Below, one piece after another: positions 4,663 to 38,765 of a stretch of DNA of 55,216 nucleotides. The DNA is taken from assembly GCA_002841865.1 (NCBI GenBank), contig PHBD01000020.1, positions 1-55,216 on the forward strand, given 5' to 3'. Numbering within the stretch: position 1 is the stretch's first letter; every line of letters begins with the position of its first letter. The position numbers were made by a program, and so were the translations under genes. This DNA is from Deltaproteobacteria bacterium HGW-Deltaproteobacteria-19 (GTDB taxonomy: Bacteria > Desulfobacterota > Syntrophia > Syntrophales > PHBD01). The notes beneath the pieces were generated by a model. That model had not been told where the DNA came from. It saw nothing but the letters and a program-made list of their open reading frames with translations, and searched no databases.

Positions 4663-4962
4663 CTACCGCAATTCGCGCTTGCGCTCGTCCAGGGAGTACA
4701 CGAAGGCCAGGATCTCCGCGATGGCCCGGTAGAGTTCGACGGGGATTTCCTGATCGACGTCCAGGCGGTAGAGGAACTCGACCAGGGCGGAGTCCTCCTT
4801 CACCGGGACCCCGTGAAGGCGCGCCTTTTCGATGATCCGGCTTGCCACCTCGCCGCGCCCCTTTGCGGTTATCCGGGGCGCCGAATCCGGCTTCCCGTCG
4901 TATTTCAGCGCCGCCGCAAGGGGGGTCTTTTCCTTCTTATGGCCGGGGCGTTCCTGATTCAT
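4663..4962 (-). CDS. Stand-alone FlhB C-terminal-domain protein (FhlB/YlqH type)
   Basis: A 99-residue soluble protein matching only the C-terminal cytoplasmic part of FlhB downstream of the autocleavage site. Residues KGRGEVASRI and VPVELYRAIAEILAFVYSLD align closely with KGRGFLAATI and IPENLYRAVAEILAFVYRLR in the full FlhB at 15375-16445. No transmembrane segments and no NPTH motif are present. Such proteins (FhlB) can substitute for part of the FlhB export-switch domain; a role in substrate switching here is inference, strengthened by the FliK-like gene directly upstream. The ATG at 4962 has AAGGA five bases before it; a TTG at 4998 is a weaker alternative. Confidence 0.85.
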   Translation of the reverse strand: MNQERPGHKKEKTPLAAALKYDGKPDSAPRITAKGRGEVASRIIEKARLHGVPVKEDSALVEFLYRLDVDQEIPVELYRAIAEILAFVYSLDERKRELR

Positions 4963-5025
4963 AGGATCCTTCCGCGGCGGTTGCCCGCCCGTTTCCAAAA
5001 CCGGCCCGTTGCCGCTCGCAGGAGG

Positions 5026-6216: not shown

Positions 6217-6681
6217 TTACCTCTTCCCGGTCAGATTCAGGATGAGGTTGACTTCCCCGTCCGGGATGCCGGTGTGCCTTGCGATCTCACGCTCCGAGAG
6301 ACCGCGGGCGGCCAGGGCCAGAACCTGTGCGGCCCTTGGATCCCCCGCCGGGGGAGGGTCGGCCTCCGGTTCCTTCCGTTCCGGGGCTTCCGGGCACAGG
6401 GTCAGGAGCTCGCGGATTCTTTTTTCCCGCTCATCCAGGGCACGGGCCAGCTCCTTGAGCGTATCCCGGCTCTCCTGGACGGCCGTCAAAAAATGGTCGG
6501 TCGCGCTGCGGGAATCCTCGACGAGCTGCCGAAGGTCCTGCATCTCTTTTTCCCCGGGGAGAACGTTTTTCCGGCTCATGGCCCTGCGGACCTGCCAGAG
6601 GAGGAAAAGAACGAGCAGCGCAAGGGCAACATCCATGCCAAGCTGCAGCAGCAGAAACTCCCGTGTCGTCATCGCAAGCAT
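6217..6681 (-). CDS. Membrane-anchored DUF2802-like flagellar operon protein
   Basis: A 154-residue protein with one N-terminal membrane segment (about residues 13-32, VALALLVLFLLWQVRRAM), a central coiled coil rich in Glu, Arg and Leu, and a C-terminal helix-turn-helix-like motif, LALAARGLSEREIARHTG followed by PDGEVNLILNL. That C-terminal motif is characteristic of the DUF2802 family, which is found in flagellar operons and has no settled function. I chose the ATG at 6681 because GGGAG lies 5 bases before it; an upstream ATG at 6693 is possible. A structural or regulatory role at the membrane is inference from topology. Confidence 0.7.
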   Translation of the reverse strand: MLAMTTREFLLLQLGMDVALALLVLFLLWQVRRAMSRKNVLPGEKEMQDLRQLVEDSRSATDHFLTAVQESRDTLKELARALDEREKRIRELLTLCPEAPERKEPEADPPPAGDPRAAQVLALAARGLSEREIARHTGIPDGEVNLILNLTGKR

Positions 6682-6701
6682 GTCGGCTCCCATCCGTTCC
6701 G

Positions 6702-6998
6702 TCAGGCAAGCACGTCCAGGCGGCTTCCCTGGATCCGTTCGTCTTCCGCGGCACTGCCGCCGTCAACCACGGTTTCGATGGCCTGCCCTTTCCGTCCGGA
6801 CTCCGGGGACGCATCCTCTTCGTCCTGTCCATGGGCGGCCTTTTCCTCCCGCTCTTCCCGCTCCGGGGAGGGAAAGGGCTTCTTTTTCTCCCGCTGCCGG
6901 TAGGGGACGGGCTGCCGTTTCCGGTCCGAAACCGGGGACTGGACCTGCGGGACCGCCTCGGCACCAAGAATCGGAAGCATCGGTCTTTTAATGTCCAT
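6702..6998 (-). CDS. Small, charged, probably disordered protein of unknown function
   Basis: A 98-residue protein that I do not recognise. The N-terminus is MDIKRPMLPILGAEAVPQ; the rest is dominated by Arg, Lys, Glu, Ser and Pro, as in intrinsically disordered linkers. No membrane segment or signal is visible. It sits between the pseudokinase at 7016 and the DUF2802-like gene at 6217 with gaps of 17 and 20 bases, in line with operon membership. No strong ribosome site is seen. It is supported mainly by its tight fit in the operon. Confidence 0.55.
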   Translation of the reverse strand: MDIKRPMLPILGAEAVPQVQSPVSDRKRQPVPYRQREKKKPFPSPEREEREEKAAHGQDEEDASPESGRKGQAIETVVDGGSAAEDERIQGSRLDVLA

Positions 6999-7015: not shown

Positions 7016-7780
7016 TCAGCAGGCAGGAAACGATATCCAGATTTCCTGACCTTGTTCCACGGAAACGGCCGCCCCGTAATGTTTCCAGAGAAGCAGGGAC
7101 AGACAGAGTGCACAATGGGGACGATCCTGGATCCGCGGCTGCCGGCCCTCATCCAGCACTCCCTCCATATCCTCCCGCTCCTCGTCCGTCAACGGTGTTC
7201 CGGTATGGCGGATGCCGAGAAGAACCCGATCGTTCTCTTTCCCGATCGTCACGTTAAGCTCATGATCTCCCTGGGATCCCATGCGAACCGTCGCATGACG
7301 GAGCAACGCCCAGAGGGCCATGGCGAAATGGGCCTGGACGCCCCGCACGGGCGGAACCCCGTCGGAAAGGTTCAGGACCTTGCGGACCCGGTGCTTGAAG
7401 TCCAGGTAATGATCCGCAAAGCGAACTTCCCGACGCACCAGGCTCGGAAGATCAAACCGATCCTCCTTCTTGTGGGTGAGGATCCCGAACCGGGAGGCGA
7501 CATCCTGGAAGACATCGGCAAATCGCTCCGATTCAGTGTTCAACAACCGGACATCGGAATGAATCTTCAACCAGTCCTCCGCCAGCGTACCCGGCATCTG
7601 AACCGCGTTTTTCTCCATGGCCGCCTGCAGGTTCTCCAGGCGCCGTTCGAGAATCTTCGCCCTGCCCATGATCCCGTTCAGCGGGTTGGCAAAGTTGTGG
7701 AGAAGCCCCGGCACGAAAGCATACAGCATGGTTCCTGAAAAGGCCTCTTCCAAGGCACGCTCAAGCTCTTGTATTTCCAT
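7016..7780 (-). CDS. Degenerate histidine kinase (pseudokinase) of the flagellar operon
   Basis: A 254-residue soluble protein with a recognisable H-box, VPGLLHNFANPLNGIMGRAK, so His28 is a candidate phospho-acceptor. The ATP-binding half is damaged: where kinases have an N-box with Asn this protein has ALWALLRHATVRMG, and the G1 box (normally DxGxG) reads IRHTGTPL. No sensory or membrane segment is present. It overlaps the end of the intact kinase gene at 7761-8582 by 20 bases, so the two are probably co-translated. It may act as a phosphotransfer or regulatory partner of that kinase, which is inference. AGGA precedes the ATG by 6 bases. Confidence 0.75.
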   Translation of the reverse strand: MEIQELERALEEAFSGTMLYAFVPGLLHNFANPLNGIMGRAKILERRLENLQAAMEKNAVQMPGTLAEDWLKIHSDVRLLNTESERFADVFQDVASRFGILTHKKEDRFDLPSLVRREVRFADHYLDFKHRVRKVLNLSDGVPPVRGVQAHFAMALWALLRHATVRMGSQGDHELNVTIGKENDRVLLGIRHTGTPLTDEEREDMEGVLDEGRQPRIQDRPHCALCLSLLLWKHYGAAVSVEQGQEIWISFPAC

Positions 7781-8582
7781 GGTTATTCCTCATCAGATTC
7801 TCTTCCGGTCTATCCAGCAAACCGCTTCCGGAGGGTACAAGATCCGCCGGCAGCTCCACATGGACTACGGTCCCCCGCGCGGGCGCCCCTTCCGCCCAGA
7901 TCCTTCCCCCGTGAAGTTCACAGGCGAGACGGCAGAAGGCGAGCCCGATGCCGGATTCGCTCTTTCCGGTCCCGGGACCGGGAGCACAGCCGCTGCCGGG
8001 GCGGGGAGAACCCGTCACTTCATTGCCTGCCTTGCCGCCCGAAAAGGGACGAACCAGGGCCGCCTTGACCACCTCCGGCATCCCGGCGCCATTATCACAC
8101 ACGGAAATGCGGATCCGGCCCGTGGAGGCGTTCCATACCCGGATACCGATTCGCCCGCCCCGTTCTACCTGGGCGACGGCATTCAGCATCAGATTGCAAA
8201 GAACTCTTTCCAGCAGGGGCTCGTCCGCGACCAGCGTCACCGGGGCCTCCTCGATGTCGATCTCAAGGTGCACGTTTTTATCCCGGCACAGCACCACCCA
8301 CATTTTCTCCAGGCGATGGAAGAAGAGGCCGACACGGATAATGCACAGTTCGAGGGCAGGTCCATGCTCCCCCAGACGTGTGATCCGCAGGTACCCCTGG
8401 ATCATGAGCTGGAGATCCCGGCACCCCTTGAGCGCACTATGCAGGAGCTCCTCCTCCCGGGAGCGCAGGCGGCATCTTGAAAGCAGGTCCAGGTTCGCCA
8501 GGATAATCGTCAGAGGGTTTTTCATATCATGAACGATCATGCGTTGCCAATCGACGTGCAACAATCCCTTTGTGGATTCCAT
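7761..8582 (-). CDS. Soluble sensor histidine kinase in flagellar operon
   Basis: A 273-residue cytoplasmic histidine kinase without a visible input domain. It has all catalytic boxes: H-box RMIVHDMKNPLTIILANLDL with His18, N-box LERVLCNLMLNAVAQ, G1 box VCDNGAGMPE, and G2 region GKSESGIGLAFCRLACELHG. A Gly/Pro-rich insertion lies between G1 and G2. The start at 8582 is preceded by AAGG at 6 bases; an ATG at 8603 is an alternative. Its stop overlaps the start of the pseudokinase at 7016-7780, and the receiver-TPR protein at 9211-10461 is the nearest candidate substrate. Association with FlhF, FlhG and FliA suggests motility signalling. Confidence 0.85.
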   Translation of the reverse strand: MESTKGLLHVDWQRMIVHDMKNPLTIILANLDLLSRCRLRSREEELLHSALKGCRDLQLMIQGYLRITRLGEHGPALELCIIRVGLFFHRLEKMWVVLCRDKNVHLEIDIEEAPVTLVADEPLLERVLCNLMLNAVAQVERGGRIGIRVWNASTGRIRISVCDNGAGMPEVVKAALVRPFSGGKAGNEVTGSPRPGSGCAPGPGTGKSESGIGLAFCRLACELHGGRIWAEGAPARGTVVHVELPADLVPSGSGLLDRPEENLMRNNHGNTRA

Positions 8583-8627
8583 CTGCCGCCTTCCCTGTTC
8601 CATGCCCCGCCCCCAGCCGCTCCCCGC

Positions 8628-9197
8628 TCACCACACGTTGAGATCCGAAAACCAGACGGTTTTCACAGCCTCCCGCTTCAGGACCTGGTTGATTCCCTCG
8701 GTGATCTCCTTCCGGAGGGTTTCCCGTTCTTTAGGCGTTTTCAGTACCTCCGCGGTCTTCGCGGACAGAATCGTGTGGATTGTCCTCCGGACGTCCATTC
8801 CGTTCATCTCGGGAAGGACTTTCCGGTCCACCGGATCCAGCGCGACATTGACGACTGCCAGCCGCGGGGTTCCCGATGCATCCTTTACATCGACATAGAA
8901 TTCCTCGACCAGGGACGCCGCCGCGGATGCCTCGGCAGGGATCCGGGCATTGATGGGAACCACATTCCCGGTTGGTTGGCGGCCCATCGGACTCCAGAAG
9001 AGCAGGACAGCCGCGGCCAGGATCCCGAGAACCCCGATGCCGATCCCGCCCGCAATGACCCGCCGGTCCCTGAACCACGCCCGTTTGGCTTTTTCCGGCA
9101 CCTTTTCCCCCGCATCATCCGGTGGTGGATTTTCCACCACGGGACTGCTGTCCAGGGGAATGTCCAGGATGTCCAGTTTCGCCTTTTGCTGCGCCAT
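8628..9197 (-). CDS. Second FliL family protein
   Basis: A 189-residue protein with one membrane anchor (about residues 47-68, VIAGGIGIGVLGILAAAVLL) and a C-terminal periplasmic FliL domain. The domain runs from SLVEEFYVDVKDASG through TIHTILSAKTAEVL, RKEITEGINQVLKRE and a final VWFSDLNVW, the usual FliL ending. FliL surrounds the stator around MotB. The window also encodes a standard FliL at 20398-20886 between fliM and the motB-like genes, so this is a paralogue. Two different stators are encoded here too, so one FliL per stator is a reasonable inference. Confidence 0.85.
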   Translation of the reverse strand: MAQQKAKLDILDIPLDSSPVVENPPPDDAGEKVPEKAKRAWFRDRRVIAGGIGIGVLGILAAAVLLFWSPMGRQPTGNVVPINARIPAEASAAASLVEEFYVDVKDASGTPRLAVVNVALDPVDRKVLPEMNGMDVRRTIHTILSAKTAEVLKTPKERETLRKEITEGINQVLKREAVKTVWFSDLNVW

Positions 9198-9210
9198 GAC
9201 GACTCCTCGC

Positions 9211-10461
9211 TCAGCTCATGCTGCCACGTTCGCCCATCAGGTCGTCCGCAGCTTCGAATGTACGTTCCGGTGTTTTTCCAGGTCCCCGATCGAGGCGATC
9301 CAACAGGGCCTTCGCTTCCGGGAAATCCGGATACAGTACAAGGGCTTTCAGAACATGCTCCCTCGCCTCGCTCTCCCGTCCGGCCTCCATCAGGACCCTG
9401 GCCATATTGTACCGAAGATGGTCGTCATCGGGATCCATGAGGATCGCCTTCCCATACAGATCGATGGCTTCATGGAGGCGGCCCTGCTTCCGGCAGGCAA
9501 TGCCCAGGCGGTTGTAAAGGTGAAGGTCCGACGGATTCTCATTCAGGAGGACGCGAAAGATCTCCTCCGCCTCGCTGTTCAGGTTCCGGGCCAGCAGGGC
9601 CTCGCCGATCTCCCTGCGGATGGGCAGATCCGCCGGCGCCTCCCGGGCAGCCTGTTCGAAGGCTTTCCTGGCATCCTCGACGGCGTCGTTTTCCAGGAGG
9701 GCTTTGCCGAGGTTCAGCTGCCGGTTCGCATTCTTCGGACTGATGGCCGTCGCCTTCCGCATCGCAGCGATCATCCGCTCCCGGTCCCCCTTGCGGGCAA
9801 ACACCTCCGCCAGGCTGTCATAGGCGCGCGTGAACCGGGGCTCGCAATGGATCGCCTTCCGAAAGGCCTTTTCTGCATCCTCCAGCATGCCGCGGCACAC
9901 GTAAAGCTCCCCCAGGTGCTGGTAGACGCGGGGATTTTCCGGCTGCAGCGTCATGGCCGCCTTCAGTTCTCCCAGGGCCCGGTTGTATTCTCCTTCCCCG
10001 ATGAGCACCTGGACAAGCCGGAGACAGCCGTCCAGCGGGGACGGGTTCGCCCGCCGGTCCAGCACGGCATTGATCTTCTCTTCCAGTGTCTGGACCGCAA
10101 ACGGCTTGATGATGTAGGCGTCCACATCCGTCTCCGCGGCCTCCGCCACGATTTCCTCCGCCAGTTCCCCCGTTACCATGATGAACGGCAGGTTGCGGAG
10201 CCGTTCGTCCTTCCGGACGCGACGCAGAAGGCCGATACCGTCGAGCCCCGGCATGAAGAGGTCCACGATCGCCACGTCCACTGGATCGTCCAGAAGCCGC
10301 TGCCACGCATCGAGGCCGTCCTTTCCCTCCAGAACGCTGGTGTGACCGAGGGAGTTGAGCATTTTCCGGATGCTTTTCCGGACATCCCGATGGTCATCCG
10401 CCACCAGGAAGGTCAGGCTCCGGTCCGGAGGGTCGGTCATGGTCATTCCCTGTGAACCCAT
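9211..10461 (-). CDS. Response regulator with TPR output domain
   Basis: A 416-residue protein with an N-terminal receiver domain (about residues 16-135) and at least six tetratricopeptide repeats after it. Receiver residues are intact: acidic pocket VADDHRDV, phospho-acceptor in AIVDLFMPGLDG (Asp67), Thr in MVTGE and Lys in YIIKPFAV. The repeats show patterns such as YQHLGELYVCRGMLEDAEKA and YNRLGIACRKQGRLHEAIDL. There is no DNA-binding or enzymatic output domain, so the output is probably protein-protein binding. Two starts are plausible, 10461 (GGAGGAG upstream) and 10440 (AGGGA, 6 bases). It lies one base after fliA and near the kinase pair, its likely phosphodonors. Confidence 0.85.
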   Translation of the reverse strand: MGSQGMTMTDPPDRSLTFLVADDHRDVRKSIRKMLNSLGHTSVLEGKDGLDAWQRLLDDPVDVAIVDLFMPGLDGIGLLRRVRKDERLRNLPFIMVTGELAEEIVAEAAETDVDAYIIKPFAVQTLEEKINAVLDRRANPSPLDGCLRLVQVLIGEGEYNRALGELKAAMTLQPENPRVYQHLGELYVCRGMLEDAEKAFRKAIHCEPRFTRAYDSLAEVFARKGDRERMIAAMRKATAISPKNANRQLNLGKALLENDAVEDARKAFEQAAREAPADLPIRREIGEALLARNLNSEAEEIFRVLLNENPSDLHLYNRLGIACRKQGRLHEAIDLYGKAILMDPDDDHLRYNMARVLMEAGRESEAREHVLKALVLYPDFPEAKALLDRLDRGPGKTPERTFEAADDLMGERGSMS

Positions 10462-10462
10462 G

Positions 10463-11173
10463 TCAGCTCACTCCTCCCAGAAGACCCCGCAGCCGGAGCA
10501 CCGCCTGGGTATGGATCTGGCAGATCCGCGATTCCGTCAGATTCAGCACCCGTCCAATCTCCTTGAGGTTCAGTTCCTCGTAATAATAGAGGGCCAGGAC
10601 CGTCCGCTCCTTCTCGGGGAGCCGGTCGATGGCCTTCTTGATCCCGTCCTTGAGTTCCTCGTCTTCCAGAAGCGAGAGAGGATCCCCGTGGTCGATTTCC
10701 TCCTGCAGCCGCCCGCATCCGTACCGTTCGAGAAAGTCAGGGGGAAGATCCTCTGTGCTGATCACCTTGACCAGTTTCGCCTCATCGAGGAGCTCGAAAT
10801 ATTCCTCCAGCGGAATGCCCAGATGATCCGCCATCTCCTGCTCATCGGGGGGCCTGCCGAACCGTTTCTGCAGGGTTGCAAAGGCTTTCTCGATCTTTGT
10901 ATCCTTGGTGCGAACGGACCGGGGAACACGGTCGGCGGCCCGCATCTCGTCCAGCACGGCTCCGCGGATCCGGATCTTTGCGTAGGTCTCGAACCGGACG
11001 TTCTTCGTCTCGTCAAACTTCTCCAGCGCGGCCATGAGGCCGATCACGCCCGCCTGCACCAGGGCGTCCCGATCCGCCGGCGCCATCATCAAGCGGCCGG
11101 TCATACGGCTCACGACCTGCTTCACCAGGGGCGCATACTGCAGAATCTGCTCGTCTCTCCCGTTTCTATTCAC
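10463..11173 (-). CDS. fliA: Flagellar sigma factor FliA (sigma-28)
   Basis: A 236-residue sigma-70-family factor of the FliA/WhiG class. It contains region 2 (ILQYAPLVKQVVSRMTGRL, VIGLMAALEKFDETKNVRFE, TYAKIRIRGAVLDEMRAAD), region 3 (EKAFATLQKRFGRPPDEQEM) and region 4 (RLPEKERTVLALYYYEELNL, then KEIGRVLNLTESRICQIHTQ). It directs late flagellar and chemotaxis promoters in characterised species. No convincing sigma-28 promoter was found in this window, fitting the absence of filament genes. The start is GTG at 11173, overlapping the flhG stop by 8 bases. No anti-sigma factor FlgM is visible here. Confidence 0.95.
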   Translation of the reverse strand: MNRNGRDEQILQYAPLVKQVVSRMTGRLMMAPADRDALVQAGVIGLMAALEKFDETKNVRFETYAKIRIRGAVLDEMRAADRVPRSVRTKDTKIEKAFATLQKRFGRPPDEQEMADHLGIPLEEYFELLDEAKLVKVISTEDLPPDFLERYGCGRLQEEIDHGDPLSLLEDEELKDGIKKAIDRLPEKERTVLALYYYEELNLKEIGRVLNLTESRICQIHTQAVLRLRGLLGGVS

Positions 11174-34182: not shown

Positions 34183-35574
34183 TCAGGATCGGCGATCCTC
34201 CTCTTCATATTCATGAAGCTTGTTCCGCATGGTGCGGACGCTGATCCCCAGGATCTTCGAGGCGGTGGTCCGGTTTCCGTTCACTTCTTTTAAAGTCTTG
34301 AATATCATGGCTTTTTCCGCGTCGCGCAGCGTCATGCCCGGGGTCGGGGGAGCCTTTCCCGGAGGTTGTACGGGCAGGACGGGAGCGGGAGATGCCGTCC
34401 GCTCGTCCTGGAATCCCTCCAGGTGAAGATGCTCCGGGCGGACGATCCCTTCCTCACAGAGGAGCACGGCCCTCTCCATGACGTTTTCCAGCTCCCGCAC
34501 GTTTCCCGGCCAGTCGTACCGGAGCAGGAGGTCCTGAGACTCCCTGTCCAGGGCCGGCGCGGGCCTTCCGTTCACCTGGCTGTATTTTTGAAGGAAGTGG
34601 GCGGCGAGGAGCGGAACGTCATTCCTCCGCTCCCGGAGGGCAGGAATTTTGACGGGGATGACACTGAGCCGCCAGTAAAGGTCCCGGCGGAATTTCATGT
34701 CCTCCGCCGCCTTTTTCAGGTCCACGTTCGTCGTGACGATGATGCGGACGTCGACGGGAACGGGCTCCCGGCCGCCGACCCGGTCCACCTTCGACTCCTG
34801 GATGACCCTGAGCAGCTTGGCCTGCAGGTTGACATCCATGTCCCCGATTTCGTCCAGAAGGAGGGTTCCGCCGTGGGCCAGCTCGAATTTCCCGATTTTT
34901 CGCTGGACCGCCCCCGTGAACGCCCCCTTTTCATAACCGAACATCTCGCTTTCCAGGAGCTGCTGCGGGATGGCGGCGCAGTTGACGGCTACAAAGGGTT
35001 TCCCGTTCCGGCCGCTGTTCAGGTAGACGAAGCGGGCGAACAGTTCCTTTCCCGTGCCGCTCTCACCCTGGATCAGGACGGTGGAGCGGCTGTCGGCGAC
35101 GCGCCTGAGAAGATTGAGCATCTCCAGGATGGTGGGGTCCGCCGTGATGATTCCCGCCTGGCCGGCCGGGCCGACGGCAGGATCGAATTCCACCTTTCCC
35201 GGCGCCTCATGGGACGCAAGAACGTTCCGGATGATGAACTCCAGGTCATCCAGGGTGAACGGTTTCGTGATGAACTCCGAGGCGCCTTCCTTCATTGCCT
35301 CGACGGCTGTGTTCACGGTTCCGTATGCCGTGGCGAGAATTACCGGCGTGCCGGGGGACTGTCGCTTGATCTCCCTCAGGACGTCCATCCCCCCCACCCG
35401 GGGCATTCTCATGTCCGTCACGACGACGTCGTACTTCCCCTCCGCGAACATTTTCAGGGCGACGGCGCCATCCTCCGCCGTATCCACCTCGAAGCCGCAG
35501 ATCTCCAGGGACTCCGACAGGGCGTCCCGCATGGAGGGATCGTCATCGACGACCAGTACGTGCGTTGCTTCCAT
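34183..35574 (-). CDS. NtrC-type sigma-54 activator, FlrC/FleR-like
   Basis: A 463-residue response regulator of three domains: receiver (residues 1-120; VVDDDPSMRDALSESLEICG, phospho-Asp in VVVTDMRMPRVGG, Lys in FITKPFTL), AAA+ domain (Walker A IQGESGTGKELFARFVY, sigma-54 contact loop GAFTGA in GYEKGAFTGAVQRKIGKFEL, Walker B GGTLLLDEIGDMD) and Fis-type DNA-binding domain (NRTTASKILGISVRTMRNKL). It is placed immediately upstream of flgB and follows a kinase gene, matching flrB-flrC/fleS-fleR. It is the natural activator for the sigma-54 promoters of this island. The kinase partner next door is degenerate, so the phosphodonor is unclear. Confidence 0.92.
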   Translation of the reverse strand: MEATHVLVVDDDPSMRDALSESLEICGFEVDTAEDGAVALKMFAEGKYDVVVTDMRMPRVGGMDVLREIKRQSPGTPVILATAYGTVNTAVEAMKEGASEFITKPFTLDDLEFIIRNVLASHEAPGKVEFDPAVGPAGQAGIITADPTILEMLNLLRRVADSRSTVLIQGESGTGKELFARFVYLNSGRNGKPFVAVNCAAIPQQLLESEMFGYEKGAFTGAVQRKIGKFELAHGGTLLLDEIGDMDVNLQAKLLRVIQESKVDRVGGREPVPVDVRIIVTTNVDLKKAAEDMKFRRDLYWRLSVIPVKIPALRERRNDVPLLAAHFLQKYSQVNGRPAPALDRESQDLLLRYDWPGNVRELENVMERAVLLCEEGIVRPEHLHLEGFQDERTASPAPVLPVQPPGKAPPTPGMTLRDAEKAMIFKTLKEVNGNRTTASKILGISVRTMRNKLHEYEEEDRRS

Positions 35575-35607
35575 TCCTCTTCCTCACGTTGTTGCGTTTC
35601 TCCGCTT

Positions 35608-36429
35608 TCACCGGGAAGCCGCGCCGATCCTCCAGGGACCGTCCGCCTCCTGGGCGCAGGGCAGATAAAGAACCATGGAGAGACCCGAGGCTTCGTCATC
35701 GACGAAGCGGATGATCCCCCGATGGGCCTCGACAATGTTTCGAATCACCGCCAGGAAAACCCCCTGTTCGCTTTTTTTCTCCTGGAAAATTCCCCGGATC
35801 CCGGCATTGGACGGGTTTGTTTCATCCAGCCCGAGGAGCCGGAACCGGATGGCCGCCCAGGACATCTCGCCGTCCCGGGAAAGGGCTACGGGGGAAGCCG
35901 TCTCGATGACAAGCCGTCCACCCGCGGTCGAGGCGGTAATCACTTTCAGAACCATCTGGACCAGGAGATGCTTCAGCATCGGGCGATCTCCCCGGATCAC
36001 CGGGTCTCCCGAACCGTAACGGATTTCGAGAAACGTCTCGTCGCCGTCCATGAATGCCTCGGAGGATTGAAAGATCTCCCCCAGAAGCTCGTGGATGCGG
36101 ATCGGCCGGAGACTGAACCCGTAGACCCAGCTCGCGGAAAGCAAGCTGGAGATCCGCCCCTCGATCTCCCGTACACAGGACAGGATGCGCTTCAGCCGGC
36201 GCTGGTCTCTCTCCCCCTGTCCATCCCTGAGCAGGAGGGTGGTCGTCAGTTCGATCGACCCTAGCGGGTTCCGGATTTGATGGGCGACTTCTTCCGCCAT
36301 TCCCCCGAGCGCCGTTAGGGTTTCCCGGCGCCAGAAGGCCTCGTCCTGCTCCCGGGACCGGCGGACGGCATGGTCGTCCGGCGTTCCCGGCTCGTTCAGC
36401 GGATGATGTCCTTGAATTTTCGGGACCAC
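35608..36429 (-). CDS. FleS/FlrB-like kinase with degenerate ATP-binding domain
   Basis: A 273-residue soluble protein. The H-box is canonical (ALGGMAEEVAHQIRNPLGSI, His50) and the dimerisation helix is intact. The ATPase half keeps the fold pattern (RNIVEAHRGIIRFVDDEASG, SMVLYLP) but lost key residues: the N-box position reads QMVLKVITAS without Asn, and the DxGxG and GTGLGL motifs are replaced by LGLDETNPS and SEQGVFLAVI. It cannot be expected to bind ATP normally. The GTG at 36429 has GGAGG 7 bases upstream and overlaps the TPR gene by 34 bases. Context (between TPR protein and NtrC regulator) identifies it as the FleS/FlrB position. Confidence 0.8.
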   Translation of the reverse strand: MVPKIQGHHPLNEPGTPDDHAVRRSREQDEAFWRRETLTALGGMAEEVAHQIRNPLGSIELTTTLLLRDGQGERDQRRLKRILSCVREIEGRISSLLSASWVYGFSLRPIRIHELLGEIFQSSEAFMDGDETFLEIRYGSGDPVIRGDRPMLKHLLVQMVLKVITASTAGGRLVIETASPVALSRDGEMSWAAIRFRLLGLDETNPSNAGIRGIFQEKKSEQGVFLAVIRNIVEAHRGIIRFVDDEASGLSMVLYLPCAQEADGPWRIGAASR

Positions 36430-38765
36430 TGCGCGTCCTCCCTGGAAAAGTCGGCCACTTTCCCCCAGAATTCGTCCTCTCCCGCACCCTTCACCTGGGC
36501 AAACGCCTTGTCCGCCCCCGTCATGTTTCCCTGACTCTCCAGGGCCCGCCCCATGCGGTACCAGGACCACCGACGCAGAGACGCATCCGGCGCCGTATTC
36601 GAAACATCCTGCAACAGCTTCATGCCCTCCTGGGTCGTGCCATCCTTCAGATATGAGTCCGCCAGCCGGATTCGTCCGTCCGCCAGGACGGTCGCCAGCC
36701 GCTCCGGATCGGCGGAAAATCCCTGGAGCGCTTTCCGGTACTGGTCGATTGCCTGGGGAGTCCGGCCCTCCGCATCCAGGAGCATTGCCAGCTCCCGATG
36801 CAGGAAAGGATCTCCCGCCTGGTCGGCATGAACATTCAGGGCCTCTCCATACCTCAGGATCGCATCGCTTCTTCGCCCGGCGATACGGTCGATGCCTGCC
36901 CTGAGCGCAGCAACCTCTCTCTGCAGACCGGTGTCTTTGGACTGCCGGACATCCTGAAGAACCCTCGACGCCTCCGCTGCATCCCGGCGTTCGAGATCCA
37001 GCCGGGCAATGGACACCGCCAGGAGATCCCTGGCCCGGTCATCCGGGGCCTGGCGGCGGATCGCCTTCCACAGGGATTTCGCATCCGCATCGAGGCCGAT
37101 TGCGGCCAGGCTCTTGCCGATTCCGTAAAGGCGCTCAAAATTCAGACTTTCCCGGAGGTCCCGGACAGGAATCTGGAAATACAGGGCGGCCACTACGGTG
37201 TGGTCATTCTTCTGGAAAGACTCATCCAGGACCTTCTCTACGGAGGCCATCATCCAGGTGCGGCTGGAGGCGGCAAACGCTCCGAGCGGATAGGTCGCCG
37301 CCACATACTGAAATTCCCGGAAGGATTCCCTGTAACGCCCCTTCATCCACAGACCGTAGGCTCTCTGAAACCGCACCCGTTCAATCAGGCCGTGGTTCCG
37401 GGTCGTCTGAAGGATCTGGTTGTAGGCCTCCAGGGGATCCCGGAAAGCCTGTGCGAGTGAGAGGAAAAACGGCACCTTCAGCTCCGGCCTGACCAGCCCG
37501 ATATTGGCCGCGGCGAGGGTGCTTTCCGCACCTTCCCAGGAGTCGGGCTTCATTTCCTTGACGCGGCTGAATACCGCCAGGGCGGCTGTCGGCCGATCCG
37601 CATGGAATAGAGAACATCCCAGGACGTAAAGTGTCACCGCGGTCTGCTCACCCGCCGGATAGAGGCTGGCGGCGACGGAGAGGATCCGGGTGGCATCGGT
37701 GTACTGCTTCGACCAGTAGTGAGCCAGGCCCAGATTCAACAGGGCATCCGCGGGCAGTTCCGACAGGTTCGGCCAGCGGTTCAGGACGGTTTTTGCGCTT
37801 TGCAGGGCGGCATCGATCCGCCCCCCGGCGAGGTGGATCGCAACCATTTGCAGGGTCGCCGCCTTGGCCTTCGGGTGATCCGGATGGCGGGAAAGGAAGT
37901 CTTCCAGGCGCGCGGCTGCCAGTTCTGTTTTCCCCGTCTTCATGTTCATTTCACCGAGGAAGTAGGGGGCATCCACAGCCAGGGGTGAACCAGGGTAGCG
38001 GATCAGCAGTTTTTCCATCGCCGCTGCGGCCTCGTAGTAGAATTTCAGTTTCTCGTAAGTATGGGCCAGATTGAAATAGGCCCGGTCGTTTCCGGCGGAT
38101 GGATCCTTATACTGCTCCAGGATCTGCTTGTAGGCATCCACCGTCTCCAGGAGTTTTTTGTTGTTCCCCTCTGCCAGATGGAAGGAGCAGTCCGCCAGGA
38201 GACGTTTCGCCTGTTCCTGCGCCGTCGCCTCGACATTATTTTGACGCAAGAGCTCGGAAAGCATCTCGGCGGCACGGCCATAGCGGCCGCCGTCATATTC
38301 CGCCTTGGCCGGCTGAACGAGCGGGTGGACGGGAACGGCGGCCGGCTTCGAGCCGTCGGACGCCGGCGGCGGCGGCACGGAGCCTCCGCGCTCCGCTTCC
38401 CCGGGGACATTTTCCGCTTTGTCAATATCTTGACGTGCCGGCGGTTTTGACTCCGGGGCGGGCGCCGCCGGGGAGGCTAACCGGCTCTCCGCGGGAGGGG
38501 CAGCGGTTTTCCCGGGGCCGCTCCCGACTGCATACCAGATCACAAGGGAGATGGACGCAAGCACGAGAACGCCAAGGGAAAGGAGGATCGACGCCATCTT
38601 AATCCCGCGGCTCTTGATGGCCCCGGTAAGCATTTCGATCATTCGAAACCGACGACCCTTGATGGCCCCGGTCATTTTCTCGATCATTTGAAGCCCGCGA
38701 CCCTTGAAGGCCCTGGCAAATGCTTCCATCATCCGGAACCCGCGCCCGAACAGACTGAACGACAC
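36396..38765 (-). CDS. Membrane-anchored TPR protein upstream of flagellar two-component genes
   Basis: A 789-residue protein. Residues 10-56 form three 15-residue repeats of the type MIExxTGAIKxRxF; one membrane helix follows (about 58-79, ILLSLGVLVLASISLVIWY), then a Pro/Ala/Glu-rich linker and about 600 residues of TPR-like helical repeats (YFNLAHTYEKLKFYYEAAAA, LLNLGLAHYWSKQYTDATRI, LADSYLKDGTTQEGMKLLQD). The C-terminal part is probably periplasmic. The GTG at 38765 is chosen because GGGAGG lies 4-5 bases before it and the sigma-54 promoter at 38860 excludes the upstream starts. It overlaps the degenerate kinase, so a sensory or scaffold role with that kinase is plausible; I do not recognise a named family. 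Confidence 0.82.
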   Translation of the reverse strand: MSFSLFGRGFRMMEAFARAFKGRGLQMIEKMTGAIKGRRFRMIEMLTGAIKSRGIKMASILLSLGVLVLASISLVIWYAVGSGPGKTAAPPAESRLASPAAPAPESKPPARQDIDKAENVPGEAERGGSVPPPPASDGSKPAAVPVHPLVQPAKAEYDGGRYGRAAEMLSELLRQNNVEATAQEQAKRLLADCSFHLAEGNNKKLLETVDAYKQILEQYKDPSAGNDRAYFNLAHTYEKLKFYYEAAAAMEKLLIRYPGSPLAVDAPYFLGEMNMKTGKTELAAARLEDFLSRHPDHPKAKAATLQMVAIHLAGGRIDAALQSAKTVLNRWPNLSELPADALLNLGLAHYWSKQYTDATRILSVAASLYPAGEQTAVTLYVLGCSLFHADRPTAALAVFSRVKEMKPDSWEGAESTLAAANIGLVRPELKVPFFLSLAQAFRDPLEAYNQILQTTRNHGLIERVRFQRAYGLWMKGRYRESFREFQYVAATYPLGAFAASSRTWMMASVEKVLDESFQKNDHTVVAALYFQIPVRDLRESLNFERLYGIGKSLAAIGLDADAKSLWKAIRRQAPDDRARDLLAVSIARLDLERRDAAEASRVLQDVRQSKDTGLQREVAALRAGIDRIAGRRSDAILRYGEALNVHADQAGDPFLHRELAMLLDAEGRTPQAIDQYRKALQGFSADPERLATVLADGRIRLADSYLKDGTTQEGMKLLQDVSNTAPDASLRRWSWYRMGRALESQGNMTGADKAFAQVKGAGEDEFWGKVADFSREDAQWSRKFKDIIR
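38604..38738 (-). repeat. Three imperfect 45-base tandem repeats in the TPR gene
   Basis: Three in-frame units encode residues 10-24, 25-39 and 40-54 of the TPR protein. The last two units are very similar (MIEKMTGAIKGRRFR against MIEMLTGAIKSRGIK); the first has diverged (MMEAFARAFKGRGLQ). The repeat is amphipathic and basic, just before the membrane helix. Confidence 0.8.

Follow-up and report, generated by a model that had tools for sequence, protein, structure and literature searches.

An order-wide degenerate histidine kinase of the Syntrophales flagellar operon that probably acts on the phosphate of a partner

The degenerate histidine kinase described here, PK, is encoded by an old gene that is found order-wide in the Syntrophales. 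It lies in the flagellar operon of the window, by which we mean the whole stretch of 55,216 nucleotides that was analysed, from contig PHBD01000020.1 of Deltaproteobacteria bacterium HGW-Deltaproteobacteria-19. Its ATP-binding half has decayed throughout the order, the helix carrying the histidine is almost fixed, and judging from these sequences the protein probably acts on the phosphate of a partner and makes none. Individual systems have each provided an example of a degenerate histidine kinase (DivL, ChpT, Spo0B and PhyT); here a whole order possesses a kinase that is decaying in place within the flagellar operon, and relatives in other orders, some of them in the same operon slot, retain the ATP-site residues. 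It can be regarded as a natural series of the residues that a histidine protein needs after it has ceased to be a kinase, and PK points to a control layer not previously described in flagellar or post-flagellar signalling. No earlier description of a flagellar pseudokinase of this type was found in the open-access papers searched.

Two overlapping kinase genes in the flagellar operon

The original prediction described an active kinase and an overlapping pseudokinase in the flagellar operon. The checked list of open reading frames agrees with it, both genes lying on the minus strand and sharing 20 bases. The relevant features of the window are as follows.

10463-11173, minus strand: FliA sigma factor, by profile
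9211-10461, minus strand: RR-TPR, a CheY-type receiver with TPR repeats, likely the cognate partner of HK, by profile
8628-9197, minus strand: FliL-like gene between RR-TPR and HK (PF03748, 47.4 bits)
7761-8582, minus strand: HK, an intact soluble histidine kinase of 273 aa without a sensor domain
7761-7780, minus strand: stretch of 20 bases shared by the 3' end of HK and the 5' end of PK
7016-7780, minus strand: PK, a degenerate soluble histidine kinase of 254 aa, with H28 kept and the N and G1/G2 boxes lost
7697-7699, minus strand: PK codon of His28, the conserved phospho-acceptor candidate, followed by Asn29 at H+1
7685-7687, minus strand: PK codon of Asn32, at H+4
7397-7399, minus strand: first codon of the PK FKH motif, common to the wider Desulfobacterota family
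7295-7297, minus strand: PK codon of His162, replacing the N-box Asn
7193-7207, minus strand: PK HTGTP, replacing the G1 box DxGxG
6702-6998, minus strand: gene of 98 aa directly downstream of PK, in the slot of a 106-aa gene in relatives
6217-6693, minus strand: DUF6115/DUF2802-like gene, neighbouring PK on its downstream side throughout the order, by profile
4663-4998: small separate gene with a profile match to the C-terminal region of FlhB, conserved throughout the order

The order of transcription is FlhA, FlhF, FlhG, FliA, RR-TPR, the FliL-like gene, HK, PK and the 98-aa gene, followed by the DUF2802-like gene, FliK, the gene like the FlhB C-terminus, FlgF, FlgG and FlgA. Profile matches supplied the names of FliA, RR-TPR, FliL, DUF2802, FliK and the FlhB-like gene, and PF00771 that of FlhA; FlhF, FlhG, FlgF, FlgG and FlgA were named by reading the translations together with their position. 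The kinases had been placed after FliA and a receiver-TPR protein, which is right as to the order, but the FliL-like gene that intervenes before HK had been omitted. The start of HK may be the upstream one at 8603 or the ATG at 8582, the two being equally possible.

HK is intact, as predicted, with H18 in HDMKNPL, N134 in NLMLNAV, D163 in DNGAG and G211 in GIGLAF, and it scores 33.0 bits with HisKA and 67.0 bits with HATPase_c, above the Pfam cut-off in both cases. PK has a sub-threshold HisKA match (17.4 bits against the Pfam cut-off of 26.9), and the Pfam profile search gave no HATPase_c match in it at E<=1. The description of PK as a pseudokinase that keeps its histidine was likewise accurate: H28 lies in HNFANPLNG, His162 occupies the position of the N-box Asn, and DxGxG is replaced by His192-Thr-Gly-Thr-Pro196. 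The GLGL box is also gone and, in addition to what had been noted earlier, the H box has no acidic residue following the histidine (Asn29). A sensor domain is absent from both proteins, as had been stated.

Decay of the ATP site and constraint on the histidine helix

In the 79 non-redundant PK sequences of the order, the His is invariant, and Asn is found in 77 at H+1 and in 77 at H+4, where the other 2 have Ser. The N-box Asn is retained in 2, the G1 Asp in 36, the second G1 Gly in 6 and the complete N plus G1 set in none. The loss of the boxes cannot be put down to chance, because every member of the order keeps the His and none the complete set. Since the G1 Asp persists in 36 sequences, some ATP binding may survive. 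Relatives sampled from elsewhere in the phylum have the complete set in 18 of 20 cases, and a GLGL-type box is also kept in 12 of the 20. The original prediction had named close homologues with intact N and G boxes as evidence against itself; homologues with intact N and G1 boxes exist at a distance, outside the order (18/20), and there are none among the close ones.

By its sequence, PK is a member of the Desulfobacterota family of sensorless HN/FKH histidine kinases, having HN in the H box, the FKH motif and a profile match. Measured against an active class I (HisKA/HATPase_c) kinase, it possesses the His and the DHp-CA fold and lacks the N-box Asn and the G1 DxGxG. The HN/FKH kinases L148-L164 and L166 belong by profile to the same family and differ from PK in that their N box and DxGxG are intact. 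Three of these outside relatives (L149, L150 and L151) share the flagellar slot after FlhA, FlhF, FlhG and FliA, and have kept N and G1, with GLGL absent. A 100/100 branch separates the order PKs from the outside family, and the six HK-bearing loci all fall inside one 48-row group of the tree, which leaves room for a single origin of HK in the order. As the tree was midpoint-rooted, the direction of box change rests on functional boxes being ancestral, as is generally accepted for histidine kinases.

Within the order, the His helix (residues 20-50) has a per-column entropy of 0.87 bits and the C-terminal ATP domain (residues 171-254) one of 2.69 bits, the alignment of the decayed ATP domain being less certain than that of the helix. 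Gly at H+11 and Arg at H+12 are found in 79/79 sequences, and the docking helix is equal in loci with and without HK, the six HK-bearing loci being no different. In HK853, residues 268, 271 and 275 (H260 +8, +11 and +15) are among those changed in the structures of rewired interfaces, so this face of the helix is the one on which a receiver docks. When the two species of the window genus are compared, PK has a dN/dS of 0.225 (DHp 0.181, CA 0.255), within the range of flagellar structural genes; the values for HK and RR-TPR are 0.346 and 0.378. The low value for PK indicates that it is under selection, ATP domain included. Because the helix is fixed regardless of HK and RR-TPR and PK is constrained, its docking partner is probably one common to genomes with and without RR-TPR.

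The AlphaFold model of PK (pLDDT 87.5, pTM 0.81) has the DHp-CA fold, with YycG as best structural match (4zki_B; VIA Z 18.0, rmsd 3.0, 191 aligned). DivL and RetS are also among its matches; ChpT and Spo0B are not among the structural matches listed, which we do not take as evidence against a likeness.

Distribution of PK and of the HK/RR-TPR pair

The matching genome contigs are mostly metagenome-assembled genomes titled Syntrophaceae, Smithella, Syntrophales or delta-proteobacterium, and a few differ (e.g. L086); deviating record titles are common for such assemblies. Neighbourhoods were compared in one representative per species, many of them metagenome-assembled, with open reading frames called by simple rules, and the phylum searches scored no more than a few top candidates in each genome. 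In 47 flagellar loci, PK has FliA on one side and DUF2802/FliK on the other. HK and RR-TPR are both found in 6 of these (the window, L026, L028, L031, L095, with its HK counted at 9133-9957, and L115), neither in 41, and one alone in none. This does not sustain the view of PK as an obligate partner of HK, since 41/47 loci do without HK and RR-TPR and PK persists in genomes where no FlhA was found.

PK goes with FlhA: of 60 genomes in the order, 30 have both, 4 have FlhA alone, 4 have PK alone and 22 have neither (Fisher p 1e-8), a weak PK match in G014 (E 5e-4) being left out of the count. The genomes with FlhA only (G015, G039, G055, G056) are each split into 320 to 580 contigs. PK is present in all 23 genomes where it lies outside the standard slot, and FlhA above the family cut-off was not found in 21 of these 23, whose completeness is mostly unstated. 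Among these 21, G013 has a completeness rating of 100%, and in G350 a remnant of FlhA, below the threshold, contains a stop codon. In L078, a short FlhG and split FliA fragments lie beside an intact PK (upstream, at 10001) and FlhA was not found; the flagellar genes of this locus look as if they were decaying around PK.

No receiver gene adjoins PK in the standard-slot loci that lack HK and RR-TPR. Near relocated PK genes there are CheY and CheX (L108) or a REC-GAF-HD-GYP protein (L126, L087, L078), and a CheY gene adjoins PK in L047. The REC-GAF-HD-GYP regulator was considered as a fixed partner and rejected: 22 of 26 genomes have one copy of it, and it was not found in 4 that keep PK. Many loci without HK and RR-TPR carry a small gene of some 112 codons in the space from FliL to PK, and its product is apparently secreted (ALTPEQIIQLKKAGVSDETI...YSTG...AWKMLQN; L032, L034, L040, L043, L049 and others). 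This product (112 aa) was discarded as a candidate receiver, as it resembles a small secreted protein.

The claim that HK and the receiver-TPR protein act as a cognate pair finds support in their 6/6 co-occurrence in the order and in their adjacency in other families. They form a portable pair, most likely separate from PK, that shares its operon in one sub-lineage. The receiver of RR-TPR is CheY-like by profile and by alignment with the CheY beside PK in L047. Outside the order, RR-TPR adjoins an HDxKGPL kinase in G146 and G175 (family f36) and in G331 (f112). The f36 cluster comprises a receiver protein, a kinase of the HN/FKH family (~241 aa) and a large putative HEAT-repeat protein, then a CheY-like protein, RR-TPR and an HK extended at its N-terminus; in this cluster, HEAT and PAS were assigned by reading the translations and are not profile matches. 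Clusters of the f36 type are non-flagellar in L239, L240 and L242, with HK present in L239 and L240. Since one family is concerned, the f36 cluster counts as one independent case. No other finding speaks as strongly for the view that one pathway can include both an HN-type kinase and HK/RR-TPR, to judge from gene neighbourhood, and a link of PK with the pair is possible.

Proposed role of PK and alternative readings

With the N, G1 and G2 boxes lost, PK would not be expected to phosphorylate itself. We propose, at about an even chance, that it is a non-autophosphorylating histidine protein, either phosphatase or phosphotransferase, whose substrate is a conserved receiver, HK and RR-TPR being a separate pair. 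PK would dimerise with itself and act on a conserved receiver of the CheY type or similar, with N32 as the receiver phosphatase residue or H28 as the site of phosphotransfer. HK would phosphorylate RR-TPR, and PK may or may not contact that pair. Of the two activities, a phosphatase role appears slightly ahead, because a His that has Asn at +4 and lacks an acidic neighbour at +1 has the look of a kinase-dead, phosphatase-competent HisKA domain. Mutation of four HisKA proteins showed that kinase activity requires the acidic residue following the His and phosphatase activity does not, the reverse being true of the Thr or Asn at H+4 (PMC3510030). PK has Asn at both H+1 and H+4, the latter being replaced only by Ser, in 2 of the 79 order sequences. 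Asn follows the His throughout the HN/FKH family, in members with intact ATP boxes too, and Asn at H+1 alone is therefore no sign of a dead kinase. In HK, H+4 is Gly in 4/6 and Asn in the window and L026; the difference between Asn in PK and Gly in HK would fit a division of kinase and phosphatase duties and is suggestive. It is conceivable, though on balance doubtful, that PK is a dedicated receiver phosphatase or phosphotransferase that outlives the flagellum and was joined in one sub-lineage by HK/RR-TPR, with the duties divided between adjacent genes.

The nearest precedent for the logic of PK, by analogy, is PhyT of Sphingomonas, a protein derived from a histidine kinase that has a degenerate ATPase domain and performs phosphotransfer via a conserved His (PMC5898713). 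PhyT/PhyP and PK have in common this origin, the retained DHp His and the degenerate ATPase domain; unlike PK, PhyT/PhyP are membrane anchored, with a sensor region and an HRxxN motif, and serve the stress response (PMC5898713). PhyT has been shown to carry phosphate between receivers (PMC5898713), whereas PK is known here from its sequence and predicted fold. ChpT and Spo0B are dimeric phosphotransferases that are regarded as degenerate histidine kinases (PMC5898713). PK has the conserved His on a DHp domain and the degenerate CA domain that mark the ChpT, Spo0B and PhyT type, and the ChpT and Spo0B Pfam families are absent among the 22 families matched at E<=0.1 by 35 scanned PK members. PK most likely works like a degenerate histidine kinase, and by the characters compared it belongs to none of the PhyT, DivL and FlgS systems.

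DivL, a pseudokinase, does no more than read a phosphorylated receiver (PMC4211667), and PK could in the same manner bind such a receiver and relay its state by contact, without phosphate chemistry. The two proteins share the DHp-CA fold, poor use of ATP and a high structural match, DivL being a solved precedent, and a CA domain that has decayed yet keeps its fold and its constraint (dN/dS 0.255) would suit this role. DivL, however, has Tyr in place of the His, as well as PAS domains and a role in the cell cycle (PMC4211667). In PK the His is kept in 79/79 and the H+4 Asn in 77/79, a retention not easily accounted for if both residues were without a chemical role, and we regard a purely reading role as unlikely. 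A smaller chance is given to a checkpoint in which PK would sense the export apparatus and its ATP domain would be reused as a contact surface, in the way that the cytoplasmic kinase FlgS reads assembly of the MS ring, rotor and export apparatus (PMC7064773). Like FlgS, FlrB and FleS, PK is cytoplasmic and linked to the flagellum (PMC7064773); it is sensorless and has a fixed slot by FlhA, FlhF, FlhG, FliA and FliL. Those proteins differ from it as kinases paired with a sigma-54 regulator (PMC7064773). No gene for such a regulator lies beside PK in the standard slot; the window has instead a separate FlrB-like/FlrC-like pair at 34183-36570, and the failure to find FlhA in 21/23 genomes with PK off the standard slot also argues against a checkpoint.

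The original prediction had favoured a heterodimer in which HK would phosphorylate H28 of PK in trans and PK would hand the phosphate to RR-TPR. The overlap of the two genes in the window and in the same-genus genome G001 is consistent with it, as are the position of HK, which where present in the order is always directly upstream of PK, and the f36 cluster, where an HN-type kinase, a CheY-like protein, RR-TPR and HK are joined outside the flagellar context. The overlap is absent, however, in G010 and G043, PK and HK differ at the docking positions H+7, H+8, H+11 and H+12, L241 has HK and RR-TPR without a nearby HN kinase, and the great majority of flagellar PK loci have neither gene of the pair. 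The heterodimer is possible, with a slim chance in our estimation, and no finding requires one. It is very improbable that PK is a passive remnant heading for loss: the progressive loss of ATP-site residues would agree with this, but its dN/dS resembles that of flagellar structural genes, and PK is kept in 30/34 FlhA-bearing genomes and also where FlhA was not found.

In the FlrB-like/FlrC-like pair of the window, the FlrB-like kinase (35608-36300, minus strand) adjoins the sigma-54 regulator (34183-35574) and is itself degenerate, HQIRNPLGSIE being kept and the N box and G1 lost. HK was considered as a substitute for this lost kinase and rejected for want of correlation, family f9 being without HK and G010 having both HK and an intact FlrB. 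Degeneration of the FlrB-like kinase is seen throughout the window genus and, variably, in family f9 (G009, G025, G050), and most other relatives have it intact.
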